From assembly GCF_037975245.1 (NCBI RefSeq), contig NC_092578.1:3493001-3557000 (forward strand): a stretch of 64,000 nt of DNA, read 5' to 3'. The translations under genes were made by a program, and so were the position numbers. Below, piece after piece: positions 24,163 to 58,800 of the stretch; within the stretch, counting starts at the first letter, position 1; the number at the start of each line of letters is the position of its first letter. Source of the DNA: Apostichopus japonicus (lineage: Eukaryota; Echinodermata; Holothuroidea; Aspidochirotida; Stichopodidae). The notes below the pieces were generated by a model that was given only the letters and a program-made list of their open reading frames with translations, was not told the origin of the DNA and searched no databases.

Positions 24163-26315
24163 TGGTCAATTCCATGATAAGGTCAACATCATACCAAAAA
24201 TATTTAAAATCATTGTACATTAAAATTGTATAAGATTCCAATAAATAGAATACTTGTAGTTACTACCCCCCGAAAAATCATTTGTTTAATTATTGGGTCA
24301 GTAATAACAAATGGTTCCCGTAGTAACTAATTTATGAAAAATACAGTGAAATTTCATTTTGTGCAGATTTGTACATAGTAATCATAGGTATCATCAGTTT
24401 TTTGGACTAATTTATTTGCTATAGCATAGTGCTCACTTAATAGCTTCAATTTTTTCGACATCAAGGCATTAGACAACAGTGGTGAATTGAAAACACCCTT
24501 GATTTACTGTCACGCGAGTCACAAAAATGACTGTTTTTTTTCCTCCTTGCCTGCACAATAGTTTTACTCCAAATAATGAATATCAAGTCTTCACATAGAT
24601 ACCAAAAGGATTACTGAATTTTCCTTTCCAGAAGATATTCAAATTTTGCGGAAAATCACCCTTTACGAAGGTCACGCAAGTCACGTCACGCGAGTCACGT
24701 CAATTCAAGATAGTGTTTCTACCTATTTACTGTGTGTTGGAATAATTATAATATAGTGCTCACTTAATAGCTTCAATTTTTTCGACATCAAGGCATTAGA
24801 TAACAGTGGTGAATTGAAAACACACGCGATTTACTGTCACGCGAGTCACAAATTGACTGTTTTTTTTTCTCCTTTCCTGCACAATAGTTTTACTCCAAAT
24901 AATGAATATCAAGTCTTCACATAGATACCAAAAGGATTATTGAATTTTCCTTTTCAGAAGATATTCAAATTTTGCGGAAAATCACCCTTTACGAATGTCA
25001 CGCGAGTCACGTCACGCGAGTCATGAAGATAGTGTTTCTACCTATTTACTGTGTGAAAATTACAGGGATGTTATAGTTTGATGAATGAATCACTGATTAA
25101 AGATATCATATATGCATTCCCCTTTAATTAGGCAACTTGAATAATATGGGCACACTTAATTAAACTAATTATGAATTAAAATTCATGAAAATTATTATTC
25201 GCAATATAATGCCTATTTTATCACCAAATTTGGAAAGTTAGCACGTGTCACTGATTTTTTAGTAATATACAAAACACAATCTATATTAGTATCTGGCAAT
25301 GCCATGTGCTATGACTTGACAACCTTAAGGTTAACTGCTCAATCATTCCCAAAATCATATGAGCGAATGTATCTTCTCAAATATTACACTTTTGGTTTAT
25401 TCAAATATGACAAATGAGAATGGTAATTTGAATCACATTTTGATAGATGTTTCTTCTATAACTTTCAAATGAGTGACTTCAACAGACTAAATAGTGTTAT
25501 AAATATTAATTGACAAGATATATTGCCTGAACAACTGTATTACCCATACAGTATATTACCTACTGTCTGCAGTCATTAGGGTAAGTCGGGGACATTAATT
25601 TTGATAGATGTTTCTTCTATAACTTTCAAATGAGTGACTTCAACAGACTAAATATTGTTATAAATATTAATTGACAAGATATACTGCCTGAACAACTGTA
25701 CTACCCATACAGCATATTACCTACTGTCTGCAGTCATTAGGGTAACTCGGGGACATTAATATACCATCTGGACATTCCCAAGGGAAGTACCTTTTGGACA
25801 CTTTCTAGACCAATGAATGTTATATTTCACTATGCAAGATCTATACCTTCGATTCACTACTGCATTTGGGCTAGAACTATCCGAAAAGTGAACTCGTCAC
25901 GTGAGTCACGTTTTCTTGTCACGCGAGTCACAAAACATCTTCATCGTAATTTTCATGCGTTACAAATTTTTTCAAAGTTGCATAGCAATTGAGGTAGAGG
26001 TGTTTTTCTACTTTGGTATGATTATAAAAAGTTATTGGTAACATTTCAATAAAACATAAGAAATCGAACATTTGTGTGTGCATTCTCATTTTTGCTAATA
26101 GTAACTGTCACGCGAGTCACGTTTAGTTTTTCGCCAATTTCATCCCCAATATTTGAGGTATAAATATGTTTTCTCTACTGATGTAAGCATTAAGGCGTAT
26201 CTTCACTGACTACATGAATGCTTTTCTCCCAGGTAATTTTTTTTATTTGTTTAATGATATCAAATAGAGAGGAATTTTAGTAAAAATGTCACGCGAGTCG
26301 CCACGGAATTGACCA
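24163..26315. mobile_element. 2.15-kb non-autonomous DNA transposon with TIRs and repeated 14-bp motif
   Basis: The ends are inverted repeats: TGGTCAATTCCATGA at the left and, in reverse complement, TGGTCAATTCCGTGGC at the right. Both are flanked by TATA, a possible target-site duplication in A+T-rich DNA. Inside are two direct duplications (about 24428-24754 with 24755-25060, and 25440-25600 with 25602-25762). There are also ten copies of GTCACGCGAGTCAC or one-base variants, at 24509, 24671, 24685, 24836, 24997, 25011, 25896, 25918, 26107 and 26288. No transposase frame is present. The superfamily cannot be named. The right end lies about 390 bp upstream of the cholinesterase-like start codon. 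Confidence 0.75.
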
Positions 26316-26705
26316 TATAGATATATATAGATATATTTATCAGGTAAACGACTATAGGCCTATGCACTATATTCTTTATCTCTGCAGAGTTCCCTCCGTA
26401 TTCTCTCAGCCCCCTAGTGTATAGGATGTATAACTAGCTCTGATCTGACCACAAACCTCAACCGCCATTTAGTTAGGCCTGCCTCCACAAACAGAAAGAA
26501 GGACACATGTTTGATAAATCAGTGAATGTGGAAAATAAAATATGAAGATGAGTTACAGCAAATGATGACAACTATAGCGTGTTGTCTGTGTAGATAGAAA
26601 TTATATTTCCTTTCCATTTTTCTTAGTATTTATCATAAATACAGGTATATTTTAGAAGGAACATTTTCTCCGAAAAGACAATTTTTTTCTTTCAATTTCA
26701 TGCAG

Positions 26706-27070
26706 TTATGTTACTACTGTGGCCGGGGTTAGCATTGTTTTTGGGGACGGCCCATGCCCTATTCGATCCCATCATTGAAACAGAGAATGGAATAATTCGT
26801 GGGAGAGTTGAAGAGTTTTCTAAAAAAAATCTCAGGCAATCGGGTTCGGTTGAAGTTTACCTCGGAATACCCTATGGAAAACCACCAATCGGAGAGAGAC
26901 GGTTTAGACCAGCAGAACCGGTAGAACCATGGACGGAGGATCTCAATGCTACCAGGACTCCACCTTCTTGTCCTCAAAATGTCCCAGCGTTTTATGAACA
27001 TTTAATTGACGACGCTGCAGGTTTCTCCGAGGACTGTCTTTACCTTAATGTATTTGTACCGCATAATATT
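26706..27070 (+). CDS. Cholinesterase-like exon 1 (start, signal peptide, first disulfide)
   Basis: A pyrimidine-rich tract and CATGCAG at 26705 suggest that this exon follows a 5' UTR intron; ATG is at 26708, two bases in. MLLLWPGLALFLGTAHA is the signal peptide. EVYLGIPYGKPPIGERRF and SEDCLYLNVF are family motifs. The donor is ATT|GTGAGT, phase 0. Confidence 0.9.
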
Positions 27071-30000
27071 GTGAGTATATACGCTTTTCACAATTTATAA
27101 ATATATATTTGCATATATATATATATATATATATATGTGTTGTGCAATCTCCTAATCAAGTTTTGACTTAAAATGAATCAAATTATGTATTAAATAATGC
27201 ATTAAATGCATTTTATGACAAGACCGATTTCCATGTAATAAACGATAGTTGCAGAATACAATAAAAGTCTTAAAACTTCTCGCTAATCGCCCAAAGAAGT
27301 TTGTAGGGTCGCCAAAATTCGAAAGAAAAGGAAATTGTCGATATTATTTGTGAGAAAAAAAAAGGAGAATTCTTTAACATAAATTACTTCACAAGTTGCA
27401 AACTGTAATTGTATAACGGTGTTACATTTCGCAACTAGTGACCCTTTATCATATCAAACTAAACTCTTAAATATAATTAAGGCGATCTGATCCTCCCCGT
27501 ATACCCCTTCCCCATGGCGTAGGTGAAAAGTTTGGTCACCAAGCAACACAGTTGGATCACCAGGAATTCATGGTACCTTTTACCGCACGACCACTAAGTA
27601 TGACAGAAATGTACCAAATTATGAAATCAAAACATTGTTTTACATCTATTTTCTTCTTTCACATATACCTTATCCTGTAGGATGCGAATGCGACAGTCAT
27701 GGTTTTCATTCATGGCGGAGGGTTTACTCTAGGAAGCAGTTCTGACATTGAATACAACCCTGTTCCACTTGCCGTGCTGGGTGATGTGATAGTTGTTACC
27801 ATCAATTACAGGTTAAGTGTATTCGGTTTCTTTACGACAGGTGAGTCTATATATACATCACTGAGAGGATTAAAGGGTGTGAAGACTCGCGCATAAAGAA
27901 ACGTCTCATGCCGGTAATCTGACCTAGTTTCGAATGAGGTGTAACAGAAGTGTTAGACACCACCACCATCGATCCCATGAAAATACACACACAGCTTGCT
28001 ACCGTCGGTAATTAGACACTTTAGTGTACAGTCAATACATACAGCTATACGGTCAATACCCACAACAGTGTACATAGCAGCGTGGACATCTCAGGTCTAG
28101 ATAAAAGATAACAAGGTATCACGTTTCATTACTGTCTGCATTTTGTAGCAACAAGAAGAAAACATCATTTGCAAGCAACGGAAAGTTAACTTTTTCAGAG
28201 CGCGGCACGCGGTTTGGGGCGAGTCTTCAATGCCTTTAAAACGTACTTTAAAGAAAGGTAAAGATATCTACATGTGGGATCCTGACGTAACAGCGGAACA
28301 CATACTGACATGACATCCGTCAAAATGGACACGTCGACGACACGACAATAGTACCCGGGCAGATCATGGACGGTGGAGGGATGGTTGGTGGGGGTGGGGG
28401 TGGGGGTTGGTGGTGGTGGGGGGCTCAACCTGGGGCTCCCGGTCATGTGCCGTGTTTCAAGGGAAACCACAAAGGATAGCCTATCTACTTCATGTTTGTT
28501 AATAGCTATAAATGTACATCATTAGTAATGATACAATTTCAGCTTAGCCAATAGGAGGCATGCAGGAATAGCTCATATAAACTACAAACATGACCAATTG
28601 CATTGTTGATCGTTAGTGGTAAATGTACACAGCATATAGGTACGTGTACATTTATTAGAAGAATAAAGACCCAGTATTTAAACAGCACATGCACGTACCG
28701 TAAGTATAGTTTTAAAATTGTCCAAACTTGGTCAGATTTCATACAAATCGGACACCGATATAATGCTGGCTGGAGGACAGTGCACGCACTGAATTCCCAT
28801 ACCGTGTCGGGCCTAATGTCGAACGTTTAGCTACCCTTTAATTCTTCAATGTCGATTCAACATGCATCAATGATCTATTTTGCGAGCCAAATTTGCTCGC
28901 AGTCGTAGTCCATTAGTTGGGTTTTGCTTTATTACGGAAAATATGGAAAATGAGATTTCGTTCGGCTCTTCGGGTTTTGTAATAACTTAATAGCCTCTAT
29001 ATAGGCAGATGCCTTTCGTAAAACAAAGCGTCATATATAATTAAAATGCTATATTCTTCTTGATTTCGTTATTTCAGGAGATTCTGCTATACCTCCAAAC
29101 TTAGCAGTAAGTGATCAGCGTCTAGCTCTGCAATGGGTCAGTGAGAATATTAAAGGTATAATATACCAACGAATTGAATTTGATTTTCTATATTAATATT
29201 TCCATCTTTCCATTTTTCTTGATTGCATAACGTCAATGAGAAGTATAAGTACTTCTAGAAACGACGTCGAAACTATGTTATATCACTTTATATTAAATCG
29301 CCCCGTGGATTTTCATAATGCTTTTATACAGATTAAAATCGATACTAAGTTGTATAGTATACTGATAAATATTGAAATAAAAAAATTAAAAAATAATTTT
29401 GCATTCATGTTTTGATTTAGCTTTCGGTGGAGACCCACAGAAGATCACATTGTTTGGACAAGGTTCAGGCGCTGTATGCGTTGGATGGCACATGCTTACC
29501 GACGGAAGTCGCCAGTTCTTCCAGAGAGCCATTATGCAGGTGACCAGTTTTGTTGTTTTTTATGGCATGTTTTTCTTCTCCAACTTAACGGTAACATAGC
29601 TTATACTGACTCAATGTGCACTAGGTACGTACGTTTTCTTACCACCAGTGACCACGAAAAACATGTGCGGTGCAAATATTGGCAATAAGCTACAGGGACA
29701 TGTATACGCTGGTGTGACGTCATTCCACCGCAAAGATAATACGTGAGCGCGTTGAATTCCTTGCGCCGCTAGATCTGTGTCGAGTGTGATATATAGGGAA
29801 GAACTTACACGCAGTACACAAGCCCGTTTATCATCTTCCGAATTTGGTTAATATTTAGGACAAATAGACGTAAATCAGCAGAGATTACCTCTAGCTATAC
29901 GTGAACCAATCATTAGGAGGTAGGGAGACTTCGTTTTGTTATGGTTAGCAAACTAGACTACACTGCAGCAGGGCCCAACAGTAAGTTTTGAGAGCGTGGT

Positions 30001-33000
30001 GGCCAATTGGCTAAGGCGTCGGACTCGTGATCCAAGGATTGCTGGTTCGAGTCCTGCCTATAGTTCATTACGTTGTGTCCTTGGGCAAGATGCTTTATCT
30101 CAATTGCCTCTCTCCACTCCACTCAGGGGTTAAATGGGTACCTGTGAGGTAATTTGTCATTGGGCACAGTACATAACTGCTGCCGACTGGAGGGATTGTC
30201 TCTGGGACAGGTTATCATTGACCAGGGGTAATATAACGTATGTAAAGCGCTTTGAGACCTATCGCTGGTGTAAAGCGCTAAATAAATATATAATATATCT
30301 AGCCTAGCTCTAGCATAAGTACTAGAATTAGTAGTACAACTATACCTCTAACAGAATTGTTGAAATCGTTGAAAATGTAGAAATGTACATTTCTATATAG
30401 GTAAATAACTGTACAAATTTATACTTTTCTCCCCCTACTAAGCTGACTCAATTCGTACTCGTTTGGTGGCAAAGTTGTTATATAGCTCTCTTTAAGATAT
30501 ATTCTATAGGTATAAATGTAAGCCAGATACAGCTAACGCCTTAAAGGGGCCACCTTATTAGTTTCTTGATGTGATAATTGCATGCCAATCTTTGAAGTTG
30601 GCCCAGCTTTGTTACTGATTATTGCAAAAAAAGGGAATATATTCTTTGGATCATTGCTTCCATTGGTAACAATTTGTTGTAAAAACAAGGCTTGTCCAAT
30701 GAGAGTTCACTCTCCGTCTGTCTGTAAAGACGACATCAAACAAACAAGTAATTAGAAATCCCAGCAGGGGTGACACAACAGGTCCCTGGTACAATAAACA
30801 AGGGGGAAAACAAGGCTTTAAACTGTCAAGAAATATATACTTTTGATCATGCTTCCAGAACCCCAGTAGGCCAGTACAATAAACAAGGGACCACGCCATA
30901 CAATTACCATTTTTGACATGCTGGGATTGGCTTTGTCACAATTCTACGGATCACGACAGCTATTAATATGAACTTTAATTGGACTGTAGGCTCTAAACCC
31001 TCGGGTCTTTTGTCGACTATATAGTTATTACAGAGAGCATTCCGTGTCGAAGTTGTCATTTTACCAATGCTTTTCTTTATAGCTTTTGCGAACTGTTTAT
31101 CGTTTGGATAAAAATCCATCGATTTATGTACACAGTGTGAGGTGACAATTGTTACTAAAGCGAGTTTTATGCTGCAGCTCAAAACTAAACCATAGTCTTT
31201 ATTAAAGCAGTGTAGTTTCACATAAACAAACCGTCCCGAGGAAGTTGATGTCAGCTATATATAAACCTTCTAATATTAACTCTGGTTGATTTCATTACAG
31301 AGTGGCTCGCCTCTTCTCGTTCGGGCGACTTTACCTTCAATGGACCAGATAAACGAGCGAGCCCTGACCCTCGCGAATCTTGCTAATTGTAGCCCCCCTG
31401 TTCCTCAGAATACATCTTACATCGCAGAATGTCTACGTAGTAAGACCGTCGAAGAACTTCTCGATCTACAAGAAGCTGTAAGAGAAGTTCTCAAACTCTT
31501 TTTTTATAACAATCTGTATTGGATCATAAATATGAGTCATTCTACTGTATTTGTGGTCAAAGTAGGCACCCCCCCCCCCACTCCCCGCTTCGTTATAATG
31601 AAGGAGGTATACCTGCAACTCTCTATTTAAAAAAAAAAACAACCTTTGAATAAAAAAAATAAAAAAAAACAATGTTGAGAAGTTAAAGGCGCTAGCATTA
31701 TAGAAGCCAGGAAACTCAACATCCATGAGAGAACCGGCGGTTGGTTCGATCGAAATAAAACTTTAAACCAGACGACTTTTTCCACATGCATATGTAAATA
31801 TTTTGCATATATATGGCTGCTTCCAAGTATATATGATTATTATATGATTATTAAAATTGGTTTTTGATGTTGTAACATTCAAATGGAGGAAGATTAAGAC
31901 CACTCCCAGAGGCCCAGGGACGATCTTCGACAAAAGTTCATGTCCCTACATAAATCATTCGGGGGAATTTAGATCCCCCTTATACACCTCACCTTTGAAA
32001 TCCTGTGCATTTCACTGCGATTGCTCCCTCCTCCGGAGGAGGCCACCCCGCCCTATGTGGTCAATAAATAAGACAATTAGTATCATCTTTGGCTGGTTTC
32101 CACACAGGCAGATGCTTTCTATATTGGTATAAACATTTGGTTACCATCGTTCGATGGGGATTTTTTCGAACAAGATATCCCTGACCTGTTGGAGAGTGGA
32201 GCTTACAGTGACACAGACTTACTTATAGGTTCAAACGACGATGAAGGCGCCTTCGTCACTTTTAGGAGATTGGGGGATGTCACCGATCGACCTTTCATCA
32301 CAGAGACCCAGTTCAACAGTCTGACGCTTGGCGCTGAAACAAATCTGTTGGTTTCTGGCCTCCAGAAAATCATCTACAATAACGGGAAGCAAGATGAAAG
32401 CTGGAACTACGAAGAAGCGACATCGGATGTACTGGGGGATTTAAATTACATTTGTAACATCACGTCCTTTGCGCGACAGGTTGCAGCAGCAGGAAGCAAG
32501 GTTTATATGTATAGTATGACCCAAAAACCCGTTCAATCCATTTTCAACGTATCATGGCTAGGCCAACGGGCCGGACACGCTGAAGATCTCCAGTTCGTCT
32601 TTGGACTGCCCTTCTTTGCCAGGGGTGCCTGGACTTACGAGGAACTGAAGATTTCATACTACGTTATCCGAATGTGGACAAATTTTGCCAAATCTGGGTG
32701 AGTGAGTAGTCGTTGTATCAATGAAAACAGAAATATTACATAAATGTTGCAATGACATACTGTGAACACTGTGTGGAAACCATGAAACGACCAGGTGGGG
32801 GGGGGGGGCGCAACCACGCAAACTTCTGGTGGGAGGGGATCTCTATCGTCCTCAGAATACCACCCCCCCCCCTCTGACATACAGAATATTACAATATAAA
32901 TCCTTATGTACAATGAATAAATATATAAAGTGTATGCATACGGTACAACCTAAACATAGCTAAGGAGTTTCTTATATAGGCAACCTCATTTGCACCAAAC

Positions 33001-33233
33001 ATTTAAAAGTGGAGGAGCCACCGTTCCCCTTTGACCCATCTTTTGCACGACATAACGTCTTAGTCCGCCACTCATCCCCCCCCCCCCCTCATGCCGACTC
33101 ATTGTAAAAAAAATATATTGTGGTCGCACCCTGGTATAGTGACAATTGGAAGTTTCAACCGAACATGTGAAACTTGAATATGCACATAGGTTTAATACGA
33201 TAAAGCGTTAGTATAATTTGATATCGGAATTCT

Positions 33234-33273
<40 letters not shown>

Positions 33274-34913
33274 CATATACATATATATATATATATTTAA
33301 GAATTCCGATATCAAATTATACTAATATATATATATATATATATAAATATATATATATTTATATATATATTAAAAATTTAAATAGCCGAAACATCATGAA
33401 TATTTTGCAGAATTTTATGACATAGTTTCGCATCTATTTTTACTGTAGGAACCCAAACATCCCCGTCGGTCTGCCAAGAAGTATCCCAGAATGGCCCCGA
33501 TTCTTACCTGATTCAGAAGAGTACAAAGAACTGGACATTGCCTTTTCCAATAATCGGTACCTACGTGCACCCTATTGTGAATTCTGGGAAACCTATGTTG
33601 AGATGATAGTCTACTTGCAAGGTGAGTCAAAAACCGGACTGGACCACTTGACAAATTATAAATCAAATCTACTACAAATTACACCAATTCAATGTTTCCC
33701 AATTTACATATAGCCGAAAAACATCACGTTTAACTAAATTTGACCTTTGATCTGTGACCTTTGTTTCCGTGGTCTGCGAAACAAAATGATTCACGCTGGG
33801 GTGGTACCTTCTCACCAAGTTGGAAGAAAAACGGCCAACTCGTTTAGTTTTTGACACAAAATTGCGCTAAAAATAAACATTTCCTCGGTTCCCATGGCAA
33901 CTACATATATTTATGATATTTCACATTTACATTATATCTGCTACGTTTCCATGTAAATCAATATTTCCCCTTAGAGTTATAGCAAGAATTCGACCTTTGC
34001 TTCCGGTGACCTGCGAGACAAATGTGTTCACACTGGGGTACCTTCCCACCAAGTTTGAACACAAAATTGGACACACACAATGACACACACCAGTGGCGTA
34101 AGAAGGTACTTTTGAGTGGGGGGGGGGGCTGAAGACTGATGGCCGGCCTGGGGGAGGGGTCTAAGGGGAGGGGGTGGTGGCCTCAGATGCAATTTGGTGC
34201 AATATAGCACACTTCAACCCACCCACTCCATTTTGTATATAATTTTGCATTTTCACCTGGCCTTAGATGCAATTTGGTGCTCCAAATGAGATTTTTTTCT
34301 CATTTGGAAATGAAAAAGGGGTTTTCTGACTTGCGAAGCGGGGGGGGGGGGCGGAATGATACTTCCGCCCCTCCACATTTGTCACTGGGGGGGGCTGGCG
34401 CCCCCAGCCCCCCGGTTCCTACGCCCTTGACACACACACACAATATGAAACACACGGACGCGTGTTGACCCCGTCCTCGACTTCCAAGAGTAGCTACTCA
34501 GGAAAATTAACCATGACCACGGCAACAGTTGTTATGGTAACTGACATAACTGTCTATGGCCCTACTGGCAAAGACCTTAAATATCTTATCTCCTCGATAG
34601 ATTAATACAACAAGTGATTTATTCGGTACTGTGTCCAACACTGCCGATTATAATTGATTCGCTTACTACTTTATTATTTTTAATTTCAACAGAACATCTT
34701 GCAGATGTCCAGGATGGTACGTATATAGGCGGCAGAAGGTAGAATTCTGACCTCCCAACTTCATTTGTTTAAGGTACAACCAAATGTTAAACAATCTTAT
34801 ATTCGGTGGAGGGTTTTGGATATGAAAAAATTTGAACACTAAGTTTATAAGATGGATTAAAATATGCAACCTTAACATTGGTTTGGTTAACATTTTCAGT
34901 CCGAGGTCACTGA
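26708..34913 (+). CDS. Cholinesterase/carboxylesterase-family protein lacking the catalytic serine
   Basis: Predicted exons are 26708-27070, 27681-27840, 29078-29155, 29421-29539, 31301-31477, 32108-32697, 33449-33621, 34693-34716 and 34900-34913. They give 565 aa with continuous phase; the last two are short and less certain. Seen: signal peptide residues 1-17; oxyanion-hole HGGGF at 132-136; family motif SEDCLYLNVF; three disulfide pairs as in acetylcholinesterase (C88-C110, C270-C284, C415-C539); acid Glu345 in SNDDEG; His456 in RAGHAEDLQFVFG. The nucleophile elbow, normally GESAG, reads GQGSG, so the Ser position is Gly215. The choline-binding Trp of AChE (Trp84 in Torpedo) aligns with Ile100. 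Inference: a secreted, probably non-hydrolytic esterase-fold protein, comparable in principle to neuroligin-type relatives but without a visible membrane anchor. Several N-glycosylation sites (N80, N124, N277, N416, N446) fit secretion. Confidence 0.88.
27071..27680. other. Cholinesterase-like intron 1
   Basis: Holds a (TA)n run at about 27113-27136; otherwise nothing recognised. Confidence 0.6.
27681..27840 (+). CDS. Cholinesterase-like exon 2 (oxyanion hole)
   Basis: Encodes VMVFIHGGGFTLGSSSDIEY and VVTINYRLSVFGFFTTG. HGGGF and NYRL are hallmarks of type-B carboxylesterases. The donor is G|GTGAGT, phase 1. Confidence 0.93.
27841..29077. other. Cholinesterase-like intron 2
   Basis: Contains a G/T-rich run at about 28372-28430 (GGTGGGGGTGGGGG); no exon or element recognised. 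Confidence 0.5.
29078..29155 (+). CDS. Cholinesterase-like exon 3
   Basis: Encodes DSAIPPNLAVSDQRLALQWV plus SENIK, the family D-x2-LAL-WV-ENI stretch that precedes the nucleophile elbow. Phase 1 on both sides. Confidence 0.9.
29421..29539 (+). CDS. Cholinesterase-like exon 4 (altered nucleophile elbow)
   Basis: Begins AFGGDPQKITLFGQGSGAVC. By position GQGSG replaces GESAG, so the serine nucleophile is Gly215; a Ser lies one residue later. The donor is CAG|GTGACC, phase 0. The exon is otherwise intact, arguing against a decayed pseudogene. Confidence 0.92.
29540..31300. other. Cholinesterase-like intron 4
   Basis: Holds a tRNA-derived SINE (29992-30298) and a repeated ACAATAAACAAGGG word near 30790-30890; no exon seen. 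Confidence 0.55.
29992..30298 (+). mobile_element. tRNA-derived SINE
   Basis: The head GAGCGTGGTGGCCAATTGGC has an A-box-like TGGCCAATTGG, and GGTTCGAGTCC 50 bp later is a canonical B box of a pol III promoter. The body contains CCTTGGGCAAGATGC and AATGGGTACC, and the tail has GTAAAGCGCTTTGAGACC and GCGCTAAATAAATATA, the composite layout of metazoan SINEs. No functional tRNA fold with a CCA-ready acceptor was seen. Family name not assigned. Confidence 0.75.
31301..31477 (+). CDS. Cholinesterase-like exon 5 (second disulfide)
   Basis: SGSPLLVRATLPSMDQINER opens the exon and C270/C284 (NCSPP, AECLRSK) form the small Cys loop typical of the family. The donor is GCT|GTAAGA, phase 0. The acceptor follows a TTCATTACAG. 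Confidence 0.88.
31478..32107. other. Cholinesterase-like intron 5
   Basis: A C9 run near 31569-31577 and A-rich stretches at 31630-31670; no exon seen. Confidence 0.5.
32108..32697 (+). CDS. Cholinesterase-like exon 6 (acid and histidine of the triad)
   Basis: The largest exon, 196 codons. It carries LLIGSNDDEGAF (Glu345), LNYICNITSFAR (Cys415) and GHAEDLQFVFGLPFF (His456). The acceptor is CACACAG at 32101-32107 and the donor GG|GTGAGT. Confidence 0.93.
32698..33448. other. Cholinesterase-like intron 6
   Basis: G10 and C9-C12 tracts (about 32798, 32865, 33078) and a 116-bp A+T palindrome at 33209-33324. Confidence 0.6.
33209..33324. repeat. 116-bp palindrome with (AT)n core
   Basis: The left arm TAGTATAATTTGATATCGGA leads through ATTCTTAA into alternating AT. 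The right arm is its reverse complement, ending TTCCGATATCAAATTATACT with A. The non-AT arms are about 28 bases and appear perfect. A further (AT)n run continues to about 33365. Confidence 0.88.
33449..33621 (+). CDS. Cholinesterase-like exon 7 (C-terminal domain, third disulfide)
   Basis: GNPNIPVGLPRSIPEWPRF and APYCEFWETY match the GNPN and C-x-FW landmarks at the end of the family domain. The donor is G|GTGAGT, phase 1. Confidence 0.92.
33622..34692. other. Cholinesterase-like intron 7
   Basis: Two related stretches containing CTTCTCACCAAGTT / CTTCCCACCAAGTT (about 33809 and 34042) and the MITE at 34091-34429. Confidence 0.5.
34091..34429. mobile_element. MITE with CAGTGGCGTAAGAA / GGCGTAGGAA ends
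   Basis: The left end is CAGTGGCGTAAGAAGG; the right end in reverse complement is CAAGGGCGTAGGAACC. ACACACAC on both sides could be an 8-bp target duplication, but it also fits a CA repeat. The interior is G-rich, with AGCGGGGGGGGGGGCGG and GCTGGCGCCCCCAGC. Confidence 0.6.
34693..34716 (+). CDS. Cholinesterase-like exon 8, 24-bp micro-exon (tentative)
   Basis: Between TTTCAACAG and GTACGT, it encodes EHLADVQ in the right phase (1 to 1). A short exon is plausible after the end of the esterase domain, but support is limited to splice signals and phase. Confidence 0.45.
34900..34913 (+). CDS. Cholinesterase-like terminal exon (tentative)
   Basis: After CATTTTCAG, the frame reads VRGH then TGA at 34911-34913. 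No membrane anchor, GPI signal or heparin-type tail is encoded, so the protein would be soluble. A different, later exon cannot be excluded. Confidence 0.4.
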
Positions 34914-37830: not shown

Positions 37831-40800
37831 TTACCTAGCTGTAAAATATATCTTCAAGATAGCTTTGCTATGGGAAATATGGGTAACATGAGCCTCGAGA
37901 TATCCCACGGCAGGACTAATGCTGAAGACCTCAAGGTCATTGTCATCAACAGGATCTGAAACAAACAAATAAACGAAAATTCAGAAATAACAAACTTTTA
38001 AGCCCTTTCTGATGTTATATCTTATTGCTTGAATCATACATATATCATAGTTAGAACCCCCCCCCCTCGATCTTGCGTGTTGAGACGTTATAAAAACAAA
38101 GACGAGAACAAAATTCTGAATCCAACTTTTGCGTAACTCGGTGACCAATCTAAAGCTATGAATTGTTATGCGTTCACAGGCAGCAAAGTAAAGTTGCAAT
38201 TCATCATTTGAGTGAACATAGGTGAAACAATATGAGTACCTCTGGCATTGAAATTGTGTTATCCACAAAATTTCATAACTTCTGAATATTATTTTAAAAT
38301 TCTCTCACAGATCAGAGAAAGACTACATTGAGGGAGGGATTTTCCAGTCGAAAGATTCATGTTTGATTGATGTTTGATTGATGGAAGAGGAACATATTTC
38401 TAACCTTCCTTCTGAGAGTTAAATTCAATTCCTTAACTAAGCATTTTTCAAAATATTGATAACTGGAATTGGCCACAGTCTTTACCATAAGCAAACTTGA
38501 TTCAAACAGGCGTGACATGGTAGCTACACAATTGTTCTCACCTTTGATTGGATAGGGTTTTTCAACTTTATCAATTCCAAGGGGAATGAGAAATTAACAA
38601 TATACAAATTGACTGTCATAGGGTATTATAAATAATATTTAACATACGTCACAATTTTGTGGTAGAAAACAAGTTTGTGGGTGTCATGATACAACATTGC
38701 ACCTGTTTTTACTTTTGGTACAATTGAAACGTCTTCCAGTTCAGATGTTATTATTTCAAATATGGTATCTAGAAGAAGTTGAAGGTTTTATAATCTTGTT
38801 GGAGGCTATTAACGCCCTCTCACACAACTTAACAACTTAACCCCTGGTCAACCCTAGGTCTGAGGCTTAGGGCTTGATGTTCTGATGGTAAAAAATTGCT
38901 TTAATACACTGGTATTTTCCGATTTACTGATTTGAAATAGATTAATATTTGTCTCTGTCTCTTGGAAACAAGGAGAAAATAAGATGGATTAACATCAATG
39001 ATGCATTTAGCATCTTGCATTACTCATCAAAATTTTTACCTTGAGAGCAGAGAAATGCTTTCCAAAATGTAGCTGAGGCAGTGAAATTAGTAACAGTGAC
39101 CTCAAGTGACCTCTGCTGACCAACTAAACAGATGCCAAAGTCCAGAAGCTCAGGTGTAATGACCAATGAAGGGAGTGTCACTACAGCATACAGGGGCAGT
39201 TTCTAAGCAAAAGAAGACAAATAAAGTGAAATATTAAAGTGTTTTTACAGCAAATATCAAACCGTACAGGTTTGAACTGTAAAGAAACTCTGAGTGACAT
39301 TAGGAATTAGTGACATTTCTGATCTAATACTTTGCCCCCCCACATGAAACAATGCTTCTATAAAATCCATTCTATTTATCTTCTTAGTTAAAATCATTTT
39401 ATTCTCAAATAGGCAAAAAAATGTTACAAACAGCTACCTGAATTGTTCCATTGTTATAACAGATGTCTAAATTTCTCCTGATGTGAAGTCTCCTTTCTCC
39501 ATCCCCGCTGACCGACAGACACTCCTCTGAGTCCTCCTTGACCCCTTGAGTGACCTCGAGACTCTCCAGGGCAGTAGTTATTAGATTCAGAGTCAACTTG
39601 AATGCAACACTGATCTATCATGTAAAAGAAATATGTTAAATTTTGTAACAGATCAAAAATTGAAATGATCTATTTTTAAGGAAAGAACCAAAAGCAAAAT
39701 ATCACTACTGTAATTTCTTTGCTATCTTCATTAGAAATACTTTGAAAATCTATCCAAAAATACTTTTATTTGCTTCTATTCACAAGGGCAGATCCAGGGA
39801 TTCTATCAAGGAAAGGGGTGCGGTCCCTGGGGTTGTTATAGCCAACTCCCATGTAAGGAGTGTCTAGGGGTATGCTTATCCCAGAAATAATTAAAATTTT
39901 AAACCAACAAACGGTTCATCCAGAGTCATATGTAGACTAGAAAATGAGGTCTATAAGTTGGGTGTAAAAACAAGATTGTTTTAATTTAATTATTGCTTTT
40001 GATGTTTTAGTGTGAGGTTGAAAAGTGTGGGTGGGGGAGGGGGTGTACATCCCCTCCCCCACAGCTTAGCAAAATATAAAGATGCTTCCTCTCTGTTTGA
40101 GTCATCTCACTTTGACATACCTCCACATTCTTCTGAGATGGCAGCGTCACCATCTCGTCGACCTCAAACAATGAAAACGGCCGTCTCTTGGCCCTGGATT
40201 CACCGGGTCTCTTCGGGACCGGGTCCAAGTTGGCCAGGAAGAAAGGGTCTGGAGCTTTGAGCTGGAACTTCAAGGGTGTTTGAGTGGCATTCGTTAAGGT
40301 AGCCTCTATGGTAGGGGAGTGTGACGGGTTTAAACTCCACTGCGGAGATTCGACCGTTGGTTGAAGGAGGCTGCTAGCTGCCGTCCTGTATATCATTCCT
40401 TCTTCTTCTGATGTCTCGATCTTGAGTCTGTGAATTAAGCGGGTAAAATCATCACCGTACTCCACTCGATCAAAACACAGAAATGCAGAATTTACTGAAA
40501 GAAGTCCATGAATATTTTTTGGAGAAAAGAATAAAATTCCACGTAAAATACAAATATTTTTCAAAAAGGCCAGTAGAGAATTGATATCTTTCCAGAGAAG
40601 ACCAAGAAAGCACAAGAAACACAAGAGAGAGAGAACAAAAAAACAAATATGGGTTCTAAGAAAAGTTTTAAAATACTGCTGACCTGTTTATCCCTTTGAA
40701 TATAAAAAAAACCTTTTGACTCACATGGCTGGTTTCATATTGGCTGTGAAGTCCAACCTTAGAGGTTCTACCTCAAACATCTCTGCTCTTTCTACATATT

Positions 40801-43800
40801 GAGATGGATGAGAGGCTGTCTCATCAGCCAGGCTCACGTAGCCTAAGGCATATCCCACGCAGTCGGTTACCTCTAGAGAAGATAAGTACTTCACATCGGG
40901 TGTGAAGTAGGTAACAATACTGGCATGGCTCCTTGCTGGAATAATCTGAAAAAAGAACAGATGTTCTGTTTATACTGCAGGTGTTGTGGTAATATGAGAT
41001 TTATCAATATATCAAAGTTTTTGTTCACTTTTGATCTGAATGGTATCTCGATATCATAACGTTAAACCACAAACAATTGCAACTGAGTGAAAGCCATGTT
41101 TTGTTGCTGCAAACGGCACCCTTACCATTACCAGACTCATTAACCAGTTGGACAGTTGACTCATAATATATCATGCACCAACCCTGGAATTCATACGTAT
41201 CATGTGAACTTTTATTAAATATTGAAAATTCCATCGCTGATTCAAACTTACGATTTTACTTCATATTATTGAATGGCCCAACCCTGATTAATTCTTATCA
41301 GTTGATTTTATTCAAATATGATGGTCCATGCTAGTTCATTCTTACCATGTTGACTTTAATTTGTACTTAAAGTTCTACCCCCGATTCATACTAAGGATTT
41401 GACTTTTATTAACACTGAATGGCTCATTCATTCTTATCAGCAGACATCTAAATAATACTGATATAGTCCATCACTCATTCATTCTTACCAGTTGACTTTT
41501 ATTAGCACTGAATGGTTCATTCATTCTTATCAGCTGACATCTAAATAATACTGATATAGTCCATCACTCATTCATTCTTACCAGTTGACTTTTATTAACA
41601 CTGAATGGTTCATTCATTCTTATCAGCAGACATCTAAATAAAACTGATATAGTCCATCCCTGAGTCATTCTTACCAGTTGACTTTTATTAGCACTGAATG
41701 GTTAATTCATTCTTATCAGCTGACATCTAAATAATACTGATATAGTCCATCACTCATTCATTCTTACCAGTTGTCTTTTATTAACACTGAATGGTTCATT
41801 CATTCTTATCAGCTGACATCTAAATAATACTGATTTAGTCCATCACTTATTCATTCTAACCAGTTGACTTTTATTAACACTGAATGGTTAATTCATTCTT
41901 ATCAGCTGACACCTAAATAATACTGATTTAGTCCATCACTTATTCATTCTTACCAGTTGACTTTTATTAACACTGAATGGTTCATTCATTCTTATCAGCA
42001 GACATCTAAATAATACTGATATAGTCCATCCCTGATTCATTCTTACCAGTTGACTTTTATTAACACTGAGTGGTTAATTCATTCTTATCAGCTGACATCT
42101 AAATAATACTGATATAGTCCATCCCTGATTCATTCTTACCAGTTGTCTTTTATTAACACTGAATGGTTCGTTCATTCTTATCAGCTGACATCTAAATAAT
42201 ACTGATATAGTCCCTGATTCATTCTTACCAGTTGACTTTAATTAACACTGTATGGTTCATTCATTCTTATCAGCTGACATCTAAATAATACTGATATAGT
42301 CCATCCCTGATTCATTCTTACCCGTTGACTTTAATTAACACTGAATGGTTCATTCATTCTTATCAGCAGACATCTAAATAAAACTGATATAGTCCATCCC
42401 TGAGTCATTCTTACCAGTTGACTTTTATTAGCACTGAATGGTTAATTCATTCTTATCAGCTGACATCTAAATAATACTGATATAGTCCATCACTCATTCA
42501 TTCTTACCAGTTGTCTTTTATTAACACTGAATGGTTCATTCATTCTTATCAGCTGACATCTAAATAATACTGATTTAGTCCATCACTTATTCATTCTTAC
42601 CAGTTGACTTTTATTAACACTGAATGGTTAATTCATTCTTATCAGCTGACACCTAAATAATACTGATTTAGTCCATCACTTATTCATTCTTACCAGTTGA
42701 CTTTTATTAACACTGAATGGTTCATTCATTCTTATCAGCAGACATCTAAATAATACTGATATAGTCCATCCCTGATTCATTCTTACCAGTTGACTTTTAT
42801 TAACACTGAATGGTTAATTCATTCTTATCAGCTGACATCTAAATAATACTGATATAGTCCATCCCTGATTCATTCTTACCAGTTGTCTTTTATTAACACT
42901 GAATGGTTCATTCATTCTTATCAGCAGACATCTAAATAATACTGATATAGTCCATCCCTGGTTCATTCTTACCAGTTGTTTTTTATTAACACTGAATGGT
43001 TCGTTCATTCTTATCAGCTGACATCTAAATAATACTGATATAGTCCCTGATTCATTCTTACCAGTTGACTTTAATTAACACTGTATGGTTCATTCATTCT
43101 TATCAGCTGACATCTAAATAATACTGATATAGTCCATCCCTGATTCATTCTTACCCGTTGACTTTAATTAACACTGAATGGTTCATTCATTCTTATCAGC
43201 AGACATCTAAATAAAACTGATATAGTCCATCACTCATTCATTCATTCTTTCCAGCTGACTTTTATTAGCACTGAATGGTTCACTAATTCTTATCAGCAGA
43301 CATCTGTATCTTACTGATATAGTCCATCACTGATTCATTCTTACCAGTTGACTTTTATTAACACTGAATGGCTCATTCATACTTATCAGCTGACATCTAA
43401 ATCATACTGATATAGTCCATCAATCATTCATTCTTACCAGTTGACTTTTATTAGCACTAAATGGTTCACTCATTCTTATCAGCAGACATCTAAATCATAC
43501 TGATATATTCCATCCCTGATTCATTCTTACCAGTTGACTTTTATTAGCACTAAATGGCTCATTCATTCTTATCAGCAGACATCTAAATAATACTGATGTA
43601 GTCCATCACTCATTCATTCTTACCAGTTGACTTTTATTAACACTGAATGGTCCGTCGGCAGGGTTCCCCTCATGTTCTGCCAGTATCACAGTCACCAGTT
43701 TGCCCATCTTATCCTTCCTCTCCGCCTCTAATTCCAACTCCTCGGTGATATGAGAGAGGAGATTACCGTCCATCACTCTCTGGCTCTGTGCAAAAGTCGA

Positions 43801-46800
43801 TTCTGAGGCGGTCTCATCTACGTCCTTGGGAGTATTCTGCGGTGTCTTATAGTCGACCTCTGCTGGTTCGATCTCTCGACCATTCTCGTCCAAGAGGGGA
43901 AATGGATTGCCGATGTTCACGATCAAATCCAGAATGGTGGGATCTCCTTCTTGGAGATTGAACAGTCTCCAGTCAACTCTGAGACCTGAGCAAGCAGAGG
44001 AAGAAAAGACAAGGTGAAAAACAAATAGTGTTTTTGATTGACGGTGGTAAGTTAAAAGGTAACCTGTAAAGTTACGGTGGGTCCTTAAAAAGTTAGCTAA
44101 AGAACATTACATTCAGAGTCCTGCAAACTTGTGCTTACATTTTAGTCTCACTCTATATCTTTATCAAAGGCCAAAATCCATCTCAAACAAAGTTATAAAT
44201 TTCCTTACGTACATTTAAATCTCGCATGTCATTAAAAGCATCCACAAACAATCATCTCACGGTAGAATTTACCTTTACTCTTAATTCATCAAATCTCGAT
44301 CAAAAATGTGAATTTTGTTTTTAAAACTTTCTTCCTAAGACATTCCCCAAAGAAAGAGTTCAGAGTAGAACTCTTATGTCATACTTTTTTGTAAGTCAGG
44401 GGTGGGCAACCTTTTTGAATGAATGGGCCAGATATAAGGGGTGGAAAACTGACTGGGTCGCACCTAACCAACGACCTGCTGTGGACTTCAAACCTTTGAT
44501 TCCGAGGACTTTCAAGCAATAGGTTTGTATACCTAATCTGTACTCACAAAAACAAAATGTCAATACAGTACAGTTGATAACTAATGGGGATAATAGGCCT
44601 ACCTGACAGCATCATTAGTGCCGATATATTCTAAGCAGCTAGCTCGTTTTTTGTGATGATGTAAAATAGATTGATTTTTTTTCTTTTTCTTGAGACATCT
44701 CACAGGCCTCAAAATAACCATGGCCCGCTGGTCGTAGGTTGCCCACCCCTGTTGTACGTAAACTAACCATATGGACTGTTGTTGATGACTTTAAGTGGTC
44801 TTTGGACAGCAGGCACACCACAGACATGTGTTCCAAATCTCACCACTGGTATCTGTCCTTCCAATGTGGCCATTTGAAACTTTAAAGGACAGCCAATCAC
44901 AGTAGCTTTCACTGGTATCACCATGGGTACCAGATCTGAAATCTTAAAAAAAGAAGAGAACAGTTTTAATGGTAGATTTACACCAAGTTTCATGGGAAAC
45001 AAATAATTTCTTTCATTTCTTTATTTTATCTGACTCATATTCAATATTCATAGTGTCTTATTTCAGGTATGTAAAACTTTCAAATTTTTCCCATGACAGT
45101 AATGTGTTACTAATTTTGAAATACACAGCATGCTAGCTTAAAGGACCCAATCACATTCTGAATGCATTCAGTTTTTTACTCTAGGTACCAACTATGACAC
45201 ACTTTTCCAAAATTTTGTGTTTTTACCATGATAGTGACACGTGCAAACACAATGCCTGAAATGTGCTTGCAGCAAGTCTCTTGGTATATTTTTTAAAGAG
45301 ACTGACGTCATACAAGGATGTACATTGCAAAGTTCAATCTGAATCACCAAATATCCATCAACGTGTTTTGTTTGTGCTAGCTTACCTATGTCAACTCAAC
45401 TTTTATTTGTTTAACGATGTCCAATGTTTTTTAATTGGAGGTAATGTTTTGTCTAGAGTTCTAGACAGCATGCTGGTTCAATAACCTATCAAACGTTTAC
45501 ATGCAATCTTTCCTTTCTTTTCTGTTTTTCTTTGCTGTTTTGATGAATCTATACGTCTATATTTGAAGAAAAATGGTTACTTTATTAACAATATCTTGTT
45601 ACTTTGTTATCTAGTTACTTGTTACTATATTGTTACTTGTTACTTCGTTAACCATAACTATATCACAAGGAGTGTTAGCTCAGTGGTTAACGCCAGTGCC
45701 TTTCAATCATAATGTCCCGAGTTTGAGTCACTCCGAGATTAATGTATGTCGTCCAGTTACAGAGTTGTTGACAATTGACAATTCATAATCATGGATGTTA
45801 AATATGAATCTAAGAGACTGACTTTGGTCATCTTGAGGCTTTGATAAGCCAAGGATTCCGGAGTTCCTGCTTGCAGGAGGATCTAAAATATATACATATC
45901 TTCTTGTTCACTTCTGATACAAAATGAAATTAAGTTTGGATATGACTTAAATTTTGATAATCTATATCTTACCATACAGATTAGGTTATCTGAATAATCG
46001 CCCCACATGTCACAGAATAGAGTGACTTTCACGGTCAGAGTCTCAAAAGGTTTCAGGGTTCCTGCTGCTGGCTCCACGATGAACGCAAGGCCTTTATTCT
46101 CCCTCAGTATGGCTTTAGTGTAGTCTGCCTGAAGCTGATTGCTGCTTTTACTCTTTGGATCCGACAGATTGGCGGTAGCTGTTAGCAGACCGCGCCTGAA
46201 AATATTTAGAATAAACTGTAAGAGATCAAAATTCTATCATTTCCTTAGCAGGTAACTCAGTCTAGGTGCCAACCATGGCACGATACCAATTATGAAGCAC
46301 CGTTTGAAATTTCATGATATTACCATGGCATTGGGCAAACCCTGTCTTAACTGTGCTAGCAAGTCTCTTAGTAAACATTTATTTTTAAAATTTATTTCTA
46401 AAAATTATTTTTAATAATTATTTTTAAATTTTTTCATAAAAGTTTAAAAAATTATTTTAAAATTATTTTAAAAAAAGTTTAAATTATTTAAAAAAAAAAG
46501 AAGATAAATAGTTTCCACTTGTATCAACTTTTAAAATGATCACAGCACTTTCAGTAAAACGATGATAAAATTGACCTTTTCGGACTGTTGACTCGTTTTC
46601 TGGAACTCTCAGGGGGTGTAGGGGGTTTGCCGGCCACAAAGTGTTCCACAGAAATTTTGTAGGAGGCTTCGATAGCTGTGTGATTCTTTATATGTACAAA
46701 ACGGCTGGGGGAAGAGCCTATTTCAACCTCTGATCCAAAGTCAATGGCTATCTCTTCTTCTGTAACACCACCATTGTCCGATTTGATACTGTCATAATGA

Positions 46801-49800: not shown

Positions 49801-52800
49801 TGCTGTAAGAGGTTTTAGTTTATCTTTCACTTTTAACTGAATTATCATAACTATGGCTCCATCCCAATGTAATTCCTTGTGAAACATTGAAATATTACTA
49901 AACAATGAATATCAAAATTTATATTTTTACCAGTCAGTGCCATCTTCGACGATGCATTCTATGACTGAGTCGACTCTCCTGCAGCTCAGAGGCCTGAAGG
50001 TGACTGGTATTGTCTCTGATGCCAAGGGTCCAAGCTCTCCTTCACGTTTACTGAAGATGAGTTCCGAATGAATCTGCGCAGAGGAACGTAAAACAAAAAA
50101 AGACGATGGATTACAATTGATGTGATGACAAAAACTGTAAACTATAAAAGGAAGGGAAAGAGAAGGAAATGGAAGATGGCAGGTAAGGAAGAGGGTGAGG
50201 AGGAAAAGAGGATGAGGAGGGGGAGAAAGGGTAACATGGGAAGAGGGAGGGGAAGGAGAATTGGAAGTGAGAGGGAAAGGAGGATGGAAGTAGGGAAAGG
50301 AGGAGGGGAAAGCAGGGCAAGAATAAAGGAGCAGGGGAAAGCAAGACAAGAATGAGGGAGGACAAGGAGGAGGGGGTCAGTGGAGGGAGGACAAGGAGAA
50401 GGGGGTCAGTGGAGGGGAAGGAGGGGGATGAAGCTTTGCAGTGAATTTGCATCTTGTAAATCATAGTCATATGTTATTAAAATACACTAAAGATAAACAA
50501 ATTGTGCTTATCATATCAAGATATTATAACTGTATATATGTAAGCAACTCATACCTCTCCCGTAGCTGGAAGTCTTACATTAAACTCTTGACTTTCTCCA
50601 ATTCTGTACTTGGCTGCTACTTGAGATTCGTTTCTGATCACCAGATCGACCGAGGCTGAGTTTCCAAATTGAACGAGACCGAAGTCGATGGATGGGGTGT
50701 CGATGACAATAGCAGGACCCTAAGACAAAGAAGACGTGTCATCAAATTAAAAAGTATCATTTCACATTTCACATTCATTTCACATTAGGTAGTCAATAAT
50801 CACATACCTGCTATAAATAGACAACATATGGCATGATCGTTTAATGAACTAAACATCGTCAGGAAAAACTTGTTCTATCAAAAACTTTTTGATTTTCCTT
50901 TACTAAAATGATACATTCCATATACTACATATTGACTGTCCCATTCATGTTCCTCTGCATAACTAAGGCCAAGCAACCAATATGACTGCAATTCCCCCCC
51001 CCTCTACCTCCCCTCCCCCAATGAGGTAATTGTCCTCAAATTGACATTTGCTTCTTTGTATCTATTTTAATAAATGAGGTTAGACAGGGTTACATCATTC
51101 TTCTGTGAATGTGTTACACGCCTATTATAGCAGATTCTAAACATATCAGGCTTAATTTATTAGTCCAAGAAATCTGACTTTCTATAGATATTGTTATGCC
51201 ATCCTCAAGACTCTGTACTGTGGAAAAACAAGAAATGCAACAAGATCAATTTCAAGCCCTCGTTCAGGGTTTTATCACAAATTATTATGGTGCACGACAC
51301 AGTTAAAATGTAGGGCAACTTGTACGAAACTTAGGGGCCTCCTCTCTACCTTAATCAGTGACCTAATTACTGTATGAAAGAGGGAACCAAGAACAGATAA
51401 ACTTGAATATGTATATATGTAAGAAGGGCAAAACTATTTCCTATTTCCTGAAATATCTTTTGAAATGAAATTTGAACCTTTGACAATGTACCTTCACTGA
51501 TGCCTGGAGTTTGAGGAACACCGGCGCAGTTTGGTTCTCGATGTGACATAGGACGGTCTCCTCCAACGGTCCAACCCTTCCGGCTGTGACGGTCACTTCC
51601 AGGTCAATGGTTGACCTTCCAGGGATCTGTCCCTGGGTAGGTTGGATCTCTACGATGTCACAGTCACTGAGAGTCTCCCATTTAAAGAATGCTGGATACT
51701 GGCTGTAGTTGGTCATCTGAGAAGGAAACCACGAAATTACTATTTAACTCTTTCGAGATTCGGGGCTTGATTAAATTTCACAATTTCCAACGACCACGAT
51801 ATAAATTTCCTGCATAGTTTTATGTGATATGAAGTAGCAAGCAACAGTGGTGTTGCTCACATTACTTCAGAGGGTCTTACTACAGAAAATCACATATTTC
51901 TGGACTTCGAAGTCAAGCTTCAGGGCTGGATTCACAATGACCTACACGATGGCATATTGCTGCATTTTCTACATATGACCGTGTTTTGGGACCCTTTACC
52001 TATGAGGTATTACTTTAAGTGATATTCTGGTGGCCGAAAATGTAACACTTATCTGCAAATGGTGCCCTTTACCTCTGAGGTCTTACTTGAAGTGATAATC
52101 TGGTAGCAGACAATGTAACAATTATCTGCAATGGTGCCCTAAACTTCTTAGGTCTTTACTTCAATTGATATTTTGATGGCAGACAACTTAACATTTATCT
52201 TAAAAAATTCCTACATTTGTAGTTAAACAAATTAACCCGATCTCAAACAATATTTAATTGAATTATACTGTATTTTGTTAAAGTTTCCTGATATACTGTA
52301 GTTAAAATCTAGTTGGGGTTAACTTTTAATAATCTTACCATTAATGGCTTTCTAACCGTTGTTGACACCAGTATCTGTCCTGGAACAATGATTGCATAAG
52401 GGTGCACGACAATGTTAAACTCTTCACACTCCCCTCCGACCTCCAACTCCAAAGCCGTTGTATCGCAGACTAGAGAAGCTTGCGTTTGTGAAGGTCTCTT
52501 TGAAGGAGTGGTGGTGCAAACCTCCGTAGATGTGGAGTCGTTACTGGGGCTGGTCGGAATGTCTTCCAGAATTAGATGCAGGACTGAACTGTAGCTACCG
52601 ATCTGTCAAAACAGAAGAAGAAGAATGACGAGGAAATGTTTGACTGTGAAATTAATTTCTATTACTTTGACCAATCCACTGCTCTTCCACCCCCCCCCCC
52701 TCCCCCTTAAAAATTGACCTTATCGACAAAAACGAAACAAAATGATTTCCTGATCAGTAACTACAGTCTTGATACTTTTTTCAATACCAAGAAAGTTGCA

Positions 52801-55800: not shown

Positions 55801-58800
55801 TTAATTTGTGGTGAGGAAGCAGGGGCAGGGAGGGGTGAGGGAGGGAGGGGGTGGGGGCAGGGAGGGGGTTGGGCAGGGAGGGGGGATGAGGGAGGGTGCA
55901 TGAATGCCAAACAAGGATAGCCTTAGCCCTAACTTTATCACAAAGTTTTGATTTATGTTGTTAAACACCTTTTGAATGAAAGTCAAAGACTATCAGGACC
56001 TGGCAATAAGGACTTTTCCGGTCCGGAAAATATTTCCCATATTCTACTCGATCGCGTGAGAACCATGATCGTGAGAATTCTCTTTCAAGTACCTGATTTT
56101 TTCCTTTTCATTTTTTGATGTTGTTATTTTCTCTTTTTAATTATATTGGATTGTTTTCACAACTGTCAATTCTCTGCTTAAAAATTCTCATCAAGAGGGT
56201 AATATTTTTTTTTTTTTATTGCCCTTCCTACATCAACAAGAAAACCAGGGCATTCTCAACTCAAACTGTCATCACTTCCGTAAACTTGCATAATTGTACC
56301 AGGATATAGTTTTACTGCTATAATACATACATTTAAAGCATACAGTATAGTAAATGATCAGATCCCTACTCAACAGAGCATCTCTTTAAGGGTTAAAGGA
56401 AGTTAATTGTATGCTAATGCAAACAATAATAAGCCTATAAAGACTGTTATTTTATGATATTAACAAATTAGCATACTGAGGTAAACACAATGGCTTTTGT
56501 CGGTTGGAATACAAGCCAAGACACGAATTAATATAATTTCAATGGTTGATTCAGAGGATTGTTTTCTCTGATTTTGAAATTTAAATAAAAAATGATGACC
56601 AATGCTTATTTAACATTTGCAAGGTTACGTTTTCCACATTCCGTAAGTTCACCTACCTACTGTACAATGATCTTTATAACCTTTTAAAATATTTTACCTT
56701 TTATGGTGAAGTGCTTAACATTGCAGTTGTCACAGACGATTGTGACCGTCTTTTCAAAAACCGATGCAGACCGTGGTGAAAATGTAATCTAGAATGGGTA
56801 ACCAAAGAGAAGGAAAGTAGCAAATGACCTGGACACTCACAAAAATATATAAAAAACAACAAACATCAAAAAAAAAATCACGATTTCATATGGAATTGTA
56901 TGCTACAATGGCTAAAGATCGTCAACCTATCATCAAACTTTGAAATTTCTTTTACTTTCAAGTTCAGAATCTCCTTCCACCGACAGTAAACTGTAGTATT
57001 TGACCCCCCCACCCCCCACCCCTTCAATGACATTAGAGTAAAATGTCTAAAACTTACTCTGCAATAAGAAAATAAGAGAAGAGAATAGAATGTCTAAAAA
57101 TTATGTTTCGGAGAAATTACTTGGATCACTTTTTCTTTGTAAAGTAGGGACGAACCAGGATGGTATACCAACCACTGAGGGTTGCATGTTCTTCCTTCAT
57201 AACACACTCCCCAACCCCCCGCCCCAAAAAAACTTGGTGCAACCCTGACTAGAACACATAGAAATCATGTTAACACCTGTGGGGAGGCCTTAGCCTTCAG
57301 GACCAATTTCGCATATATGACAGATGGCTTATTTACACACGTTTTCATGCAGGTTTAAAACATATGAAAAAGTGTACTACATATTTTGGCAAATGTTAAA
57401 CCCTATCTGTGGCAAACCTTAGACCATCTAAACGTATGCACAGCAGTGTATAATTCTATGTCACACAAATCCCTGGGGATATTTCACACATTTGAATTGC
57501 TCTCCAGAGATGCTACCTGTCAACTTGTTTTCTAAAAAGAATTTCCCAGGGAGCACCCTGTGCGTAACCTGTGTCAAATGGTGAACATTGCCAAATTCGT
57601 GTCACTTTTCACCAAAATCACACACTTTCACAGAAACAGAAGCCTGGGACTTCCTTGTACCATTGACTGATTTTCACACATCTGAAGTTGGAGCAGTGAC
57701 ACTGGGATTTTAACTTTGTGCAATGGCAATGTGCACCTCACCTTTACCTTAGTACCCTCTTAACCGATGCTTGGATATGTATGACATTTGAAACTGCCAC
57801 TTGGTAAACATATTTTATTTCTACAAATTTTGGGCAAAATGGATACACGCTAAATGTGTATTTACTTTGACATGAACAAAGATGTAACTATGACACAATT
57901 CACGACATGTATCAGAATATATTGTACCAGCCAAATGAATCAAAACTAAATGTGTATTTACTTTGACATGAACAAAGATGTAAATATGACACAATTCACG
58001 ACATGTATCAGGATATATTGTACCAGCCAAATGAATCAAAACTAAATGTGTATTTACTTTGACATGAACAAAGATGTAAATATGACACAATTCACGACAT
58101 GTATCAGAATATATTGTACCAGCCAAATGAATCAAAACTAAATGTGTATTTACTTTGACATGAACAAAGATGTAAATATGACACAATTCACGACATGTAT
58201 CAGAATATATTGTAACAGCCAAATGAATCAAAACTAAATGTGTATTTACTTTGACATGAACAAAGATGTAAATATGACACAATTCACGACATGTATCAGA
58301 ATATATTGTACCAGCCAAATGAATCAAAACTAAATGTGTATTTACTTTGACATGAACAAAGATGTAAATATGACACAATTCACGACATGTATCAGAATAT
58401 ATTGTACCAGCCAAATGAATCAAAACTAAATGTGTATTTACTTTGACATGAACAAAGATGTAAATATGACACAATTCACGACATGTATCAGAATATATTG
58501 TACCAGCCAAATGAATCAAAACTAAATGTGTATTTACTTTGACATGAACAAAGATGTAAATATGACACAATTCACGACATATATCAGAATATATTGTAAC
58601 AGCCAAATGAATCAAAACTAAATGTGTATTTACTTTGACATGAACAAAGATGTAAATATGACACAATTCACGACATATATCAGAATATATTGTAACAGCC
58701 AAATGAATCAAAACTAAATGTGTATTTACTTTGACATGAACAAAGATGTAAATATGACACAATTCACGACATATATCAGAATATATTGTACCAGCCAAAT

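Follow-up and report, generated by a model that had tools for sequence, protein, structure and literature searches.

A boundary-spanning minisatellite in a DLEC1 intron of Apostichopus japonicus, probably copied from the adjacent exon end

When an intron opens with a long row of near copies of its own 5′ splice site, where did the copies come from, and do they matter for splicing? The question is raised by a 64,000-nucleotide stretch of the Apostichopus japonicus genome (NCBI RefSeq assembly GCF_037975245.1, contig NC_092578.1, forward-strand positions 3,493,001 to 3,557,000; the window, numbered here from its first letter), whose minus strand carries the gene DLEC1, with a minisatellite in the intron between the exons ending at 43624 and starting at 40945. 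Judging from the sequence, this array is very probably a boundary-spanning minisatellite, or "mirage", copied from the end of the upstream exon, in which the outermost donor would be spliced and the remaining donors would be passive by-products. As such, the intron amounts to a large natural experiment on 5′ splice-site choice, with 21 decoys that match the real donor by U1 pairing while the first is apparently the one used. Successive stages of its growth are also preserved, from the monomer through a dimer in which one donor is dead to the block of eight units, and these are relevant to a published proposal that duplications of this type can seed new introns.

Anatomy of the array

At the boundary, the minus strand reads ...GGACCATTCAGTGTTAATAAAAGTCAACTG/GTAAGAATGAATGAG... 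(a slash marks the splice site throughout), after which the tandem array begins (Table 1). When the two flanking exons were spliced and translated, the peptide matched DLEC1 chain 9ijj_O with E = 8.2e-17 (the only distinct sequence among the matches listed, E up to 1), in agreement with an earlier model-written note on this window that had named the gene, and the alignment was gapless across the splice junction (FSVNKSQL/IIPA versus YRISPKQL/VIPA). In Pfam, the two-exon peptide had a sole match below the cut-off (CFAP65 Ig domain, E = 0.015), and an upstream frame (62517-62783) scored above the cut-off for Ig_Dlec1_1 (36.7 versus 29.7 bits). Because its peptide aligns gaplessly with DLEC1 of another animal, the exon end next to the array is, by homology, old coding sequence.

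Table 1 Features of the DLEC1 array and its flanks, in window coordinates
Feature	Position	Strand	Basis or remark
DLEC1 exon 5′ of the array	43624..43985	-	DLEC1 peptide match; peptide ends ...GPFSVNKSQL; 5′ limit by eye from AG at 43987-43986
Authentic 5′ splice site CTG/GTAAGAATGAA	43613..43626, donor +1 at 43623	-	Use inferred from protein homology
Minisatellite, 24 units of ~93 bp	41424..43651	-	Tandem Repeats Finder (TRF); units cut at ACCATT
Higher-order copy 1, units 6-14 including unpaired unit 8	42350..43182	-	Unit alignment
Higher-order copy 2, units 15-22, 740 bp	41610..42349	-	Unit alignment
Partial 25th copy of half A, donor lost	41379..41423	-	Alignment score 58
Decayed half-A monomers	41178..41378	-	Four alignments, scores 34-50; maximum 27 in 300 shuffled flanks
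Next DLEC1 exon (IIPARSHASI...)	40725..40945	-	Acceptor TTTTTTCAG/ATT; 3′ limit (donor CAT/GTGAGT) by eye

TRF reported a single array here, at 41399-43651, with a period of 93, 24.3 copies, and 92% matches. Unit borders were set by cutting at ACCATT, the length of the final unit being fixed at 93 by script; 21 of the 24 units measured 93 bp, one 97 bp, and two 89 bp. This bears out the earlier count of about two dozen 93-bp copies, as well as the placement of the real exon end in the outermost copy: unit 1 (43651-43559), the 5′-most, contains the genuine boundary. The exonic part of every unit corresponds to the last 28 nt of the upstream exon, followed by the 5′ splice site. The earlier note had given each unit the last 27 exonic bases plus a donor; the combination stands, with the length corrected to 28 and the donor lost in unit 5 and weakened in unit 20. 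Likewise, of the array limits that it proposed (41271-43651), 43651 is right and 41271 is within a stretch of decayed copies that continues to ~41178. Across the alignment, pairwise identity among units averaged 0.927 (minimum 0.825), and all 28 exonic nucleotides were identical to the real exon end in 6 of the 23 intronic units, the poorest being unit 2 with 25/28.

Two further layers of organization were superimposed on this periodicity. At the larger scale, units 6, 7, and 9-14 differed from units 15-22 by 2 mismatches in 740 positions, which confirms a previously proposed 740-bp higher-order duplication of the unequal-exchange type; since unit 8 has no partner, most units in one block lie 833 bp from their counterparts in the other. 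At the smaller scale, each 93-mer is a diverged dimer of a 49-nt half A, which holds the exon end, the donor, and ~21 intron nucleotides, and a 44-nt half B, in which AT replaces the donor GT in all 24 units. The halves are related, with an alignment score of 35 that none of 2000 shuffles reached (shuffle maximum 25). On the acceptor side of the array, decayed half-A monomers start at 41361, 41312, 41276, and 41218; their donor positions lie ~47-51 bp apart, and one still retains GGTAAGAAT (+1 at 41345). The dimer, the decayed monomers, and an AATAAA hexamer present in 20/24 units all go beyond what the earlier note had described.

Origin and growth of the array

The array is best read as exon-derived, because the exon peptide aligns with DLEC1 and the similarity between exon and units goes no farther into the exon than the unit edge. 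Over 24 unit edges, the sequence preceding each unit matched the exon upstream of ACCATT at a mean of 7.3/30 positions, about the level expected by chance. The exon is therefore the likely source of the array, the direction that the earlier note had also favored. The opposite direction, in which the array came first as a dispersed repeat or element from which the exon end was captured, seems highly improbable. It would fit a repeat that spans exonic and intronic sequence, and it would fit the position of the most decayed copies, farthest from the exon. However, the peptide encoded by the exon end lines up in register with another animal's DLEC1, and the half-unit consensuses had no convincing copy on either strand in the rest of the 64-kb window, where best scores of 24-28 (maximum 27 for a shuffled 324-nt flank) were far below those of copies in the array.

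Nor is an artefact of assembly, by which misassembly would have multiplied the copies or the 740-bp block, at all likely: the identity between blocks is indeed high, but they differ by 2 substitutions and one whole unit, the units show individual differences, and a decayed layer is present.

If the exon was the source, a plausible history runs as follows. A segment of ~49 bp, made of the last 28 exonic nucleotides and ~21 intron nucleotides with the donor, would have been tandemly duplicated into the intron. Both founding edges share GGAC (exon GACGGAC, intron GATGGAC), a plausible microhomology for this event that would fit slippage or microhomology repair. The copies would then have diverged, and two neighbors, A, whose donor was live, and B, in which AT had replaced GT, would have been co-amplified as the 93-bp dimer, with the eight-unit block (740 bp) duplicated at a later step. 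We infer this order, from monomer to dimer to block, from how far each layer has decayed. If the exon end recombined with an intact unit, the array would contract and a normal exon-donor junction would be restored. The array is perhaps tolerated for this reason, since nearly every half A carries both exon end and donor.

Strength and conservation of the donor copies

The earlier note had pictured a row of near-identical decoy donors, and this holds. Among the 23 intronic half-A donors, 19 were exactly CTG/GTAAGAAT and paired with U1 at -8.0 kcal/mol, equal to the real donor, while units 6 and 15 read CGG/GTAAGAAT, differing at -2 and pairing more strongly (-10.3). The other two were the unit 5 donor, which has lost its GT (-3.3), and the weakened unit 20 donor (-4.1). 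For comparison, donors of exon ends picked by eye scored -5.4 (60320) and -8.0 (52338). The real donor's energy was reached by 24/174 GTs in 41100-43700, the real donor included, versus 59/3870 elsewhere on the strand.

Splicing from any of these decoys would include an in-frame stop, whereas the first donor would give the conserved protein: a TGA at 43608 lies in frame after five intron-coded residues (VRMNE) and precedes every decoy donor. The earlier suggestion that use of a distal unit would add "extra peptide or a stop" is thus right about the stop, with the peptide limited to these five residues. Pseudo-exons joining an acceptor within the array to a decoy donor were also considered and appear possible but weak. 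With pyrimidine count as the sole score, 3 of 189 array AGs (half B ATTTAG) reached 11 pyrimidines in 17 positions, a count equal to the lowest among four real acceptors (11-15).

We then asked whether the donors are conserved beyond the rest of the unit, using 16 of the 24 units; units 15-22 were left out as higher-order duplicates, so that the change in unit 20 is uncounted. In these 16 units, 14 of 93 nine-site windows were as low in variation as the donor, i.e., the extra conservation was not significant, and we rejected it as a sign of selection. With no measurable excess of conservation at the donors over the remainder of the unit, this comparison gives no evidence for a function.

Passive by-products or regulatory decoys

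An alternative, close to the earlier note's suggestion that copy number could shift U1 recruitment or splice-site choice, is that the donors compete for U1 or see some use, with copy number tuning the share of DLEC1 transcripts that read into the stop and are degraded. The abundance and strength of the copies speak for such regulation: for 21 of the 23 intronic half-A donors, the U1 pairing energy is -8.0 kcal/mol or better, i.e., at least as good as for the real donor, GT sites of this strength occur at ~9 per kb in 41100-43700 (real donor included) versus 0.96 per kb over the remainder of the strand, and every extended product meets the TGA. There is also a precedent in human CBS, where a review associates more repeats of a boundary variable number tandem repeat (VNTR) with reduced enzyme activity (PMC5188458). 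However, the selection signal is not significant, and normal splicing is reported for lancelet mirages (PMC3087553, PMC3902484), so that we regard regulatory decoys as unlikely. We judge the array most likely to be neutral and give a regulatory role a small chance. Two observations nevertheless weigh against simple passivity. Variation at the donor is somewhat lower than over most of the unit, with 2 minority cells across its 9 sites in the 16 units, which leaves room for weak constraint, and a predicted exon within the lancelet PGBD5 repeats was, in the published account, set aside by its authors without transcript proof (PMC3902484).

The hexamers invite a related and more elaborate idea. 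The sense strand of 41400-43651 has 21 copies of AATAAA, in 20/24 units and in the partial copy, while units 6, 7, 15, and 16 read AATTAAA; this corresponds to ~9 per kb, versus ~1 per kb outside. The hexamer matches the exon's own AAT AAA codons and mostly lies 9 nt upstream of a live donor. The array could conceivably act as a self-repairing, length-variable U1 platform, on which bound U1 would both keep the poly(A) signals silent and retain the spliceosome close to the true donor, and in that case copy number or U1 level would set the amount of full-length DLEC1. We consider this very doubtful. Descent from the founder segment plus one early change accounts both for the AATAAA next to the donors and for the loss of the donor in every half B.

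Comparison with known boundary repeats

Repeats of this type have been described before, in lancelets and in a human gene, and the DLEC1 array is a large, layered example whose history is unusually readable. In amphioxus, mirages are described as minisatellite-like duplications of intron-exon boundaries, with splice signals in many but not all repeats, and have been proposed as a source of new introns (PMC3087553). In the same report, reverse transcription PCR of Adh3 and globin is said to suggest that regular splicing is undisturbed, cryptic use being named as possible. A second report names the Adh and TnC mirages and likens the PGBD5 repeats to them (PMC3902484), and BflGb6 is described as undergoing concerted turnover, with a copy number that differs between two haplotypes (PMC3087553, PMC3902484).

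The DLEC1 repeats share three features with these published cases. They take in exonic and intronic sequence and the splice site between them. The boundary, taken as an active donor on the basis of homology, stands at one end of the array and is probably its source, an arrangement that we read from the published cases as typical. The units also display concerted turnover within the one haplotype at hand, in the 740-bp block and the A/B dimer. As in DLEC1, the first PGBD5 repeat is reported to abut the 5′ splice site (PMC3902484). In size, the 24 x 93 bp of DLEC1 compare with 6 and 3 units of 150-160 bp given for BflGb6, a 157-bp duplicate for BflGb9, units of 10-72 bp for Adh3, and 60-bp and 108-bp repeats for PGBD5 (2 and 3, or 7 and 6, depending on the assembly). 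To this anatomy, DLEC1 adds the internal dimer and the 740-bp block. When relatives were sought in viral contigs, 2 stretches matched a pattern and neither encoded a relative.

The human counterpart is a 31-bp VNTR at the exon 13-intron 13 boundary of CBS (PMC5188458, PMC1395315), named c.1444_1467+7(16_21) and present in 16-21 copies (PMC2630376). We read this name as 24 exonic and 7 intronic bases, donor included, in which case the CBS unit, like that of DLEC1, covers the last coding bases of an exon together with its donor. It differs in its 31-bp length and in belonging to an unrelated gene, and the CBS repeat is reported to be polymorphic and to affect activity, more repeats going with lower activity according to a review (PMC5188458).

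Other features of the window

Two further repeats lie in other DLEC1 introns. At 57850-60238, a 96-bp unit is repeated 24.9 times with 98% matches, starting by eye ~85 bp after an exon end; since 96 is divisible by 3, a minus-strand frame of 819 codons remains uninterrupted (57821-60280). At 51992-52200, a 73-bp unit is present in 2.9 copies, by eye away from an exon edge. Both were considered as mirages and rejected, as the neighboring exon ends were by eye not copied, these being the only two TRF rows examined for this purpose.

Beyond DLEC1, the plus strand carries a carboxylesterase-family gene at 26639-33713 (frames by eye), with a Pfam COesterase match (E = 5.1e-26) for the frame 32081-32701. 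Finally, two-copy tandem duplications of 161-204 bp with 88-96% matches were found at 3187-3619, 6229-6579, 6853-7213, and 25437-25760, and the occurrence of four separate duplications in one window suggests that tandem duplication is frequent in this genome.
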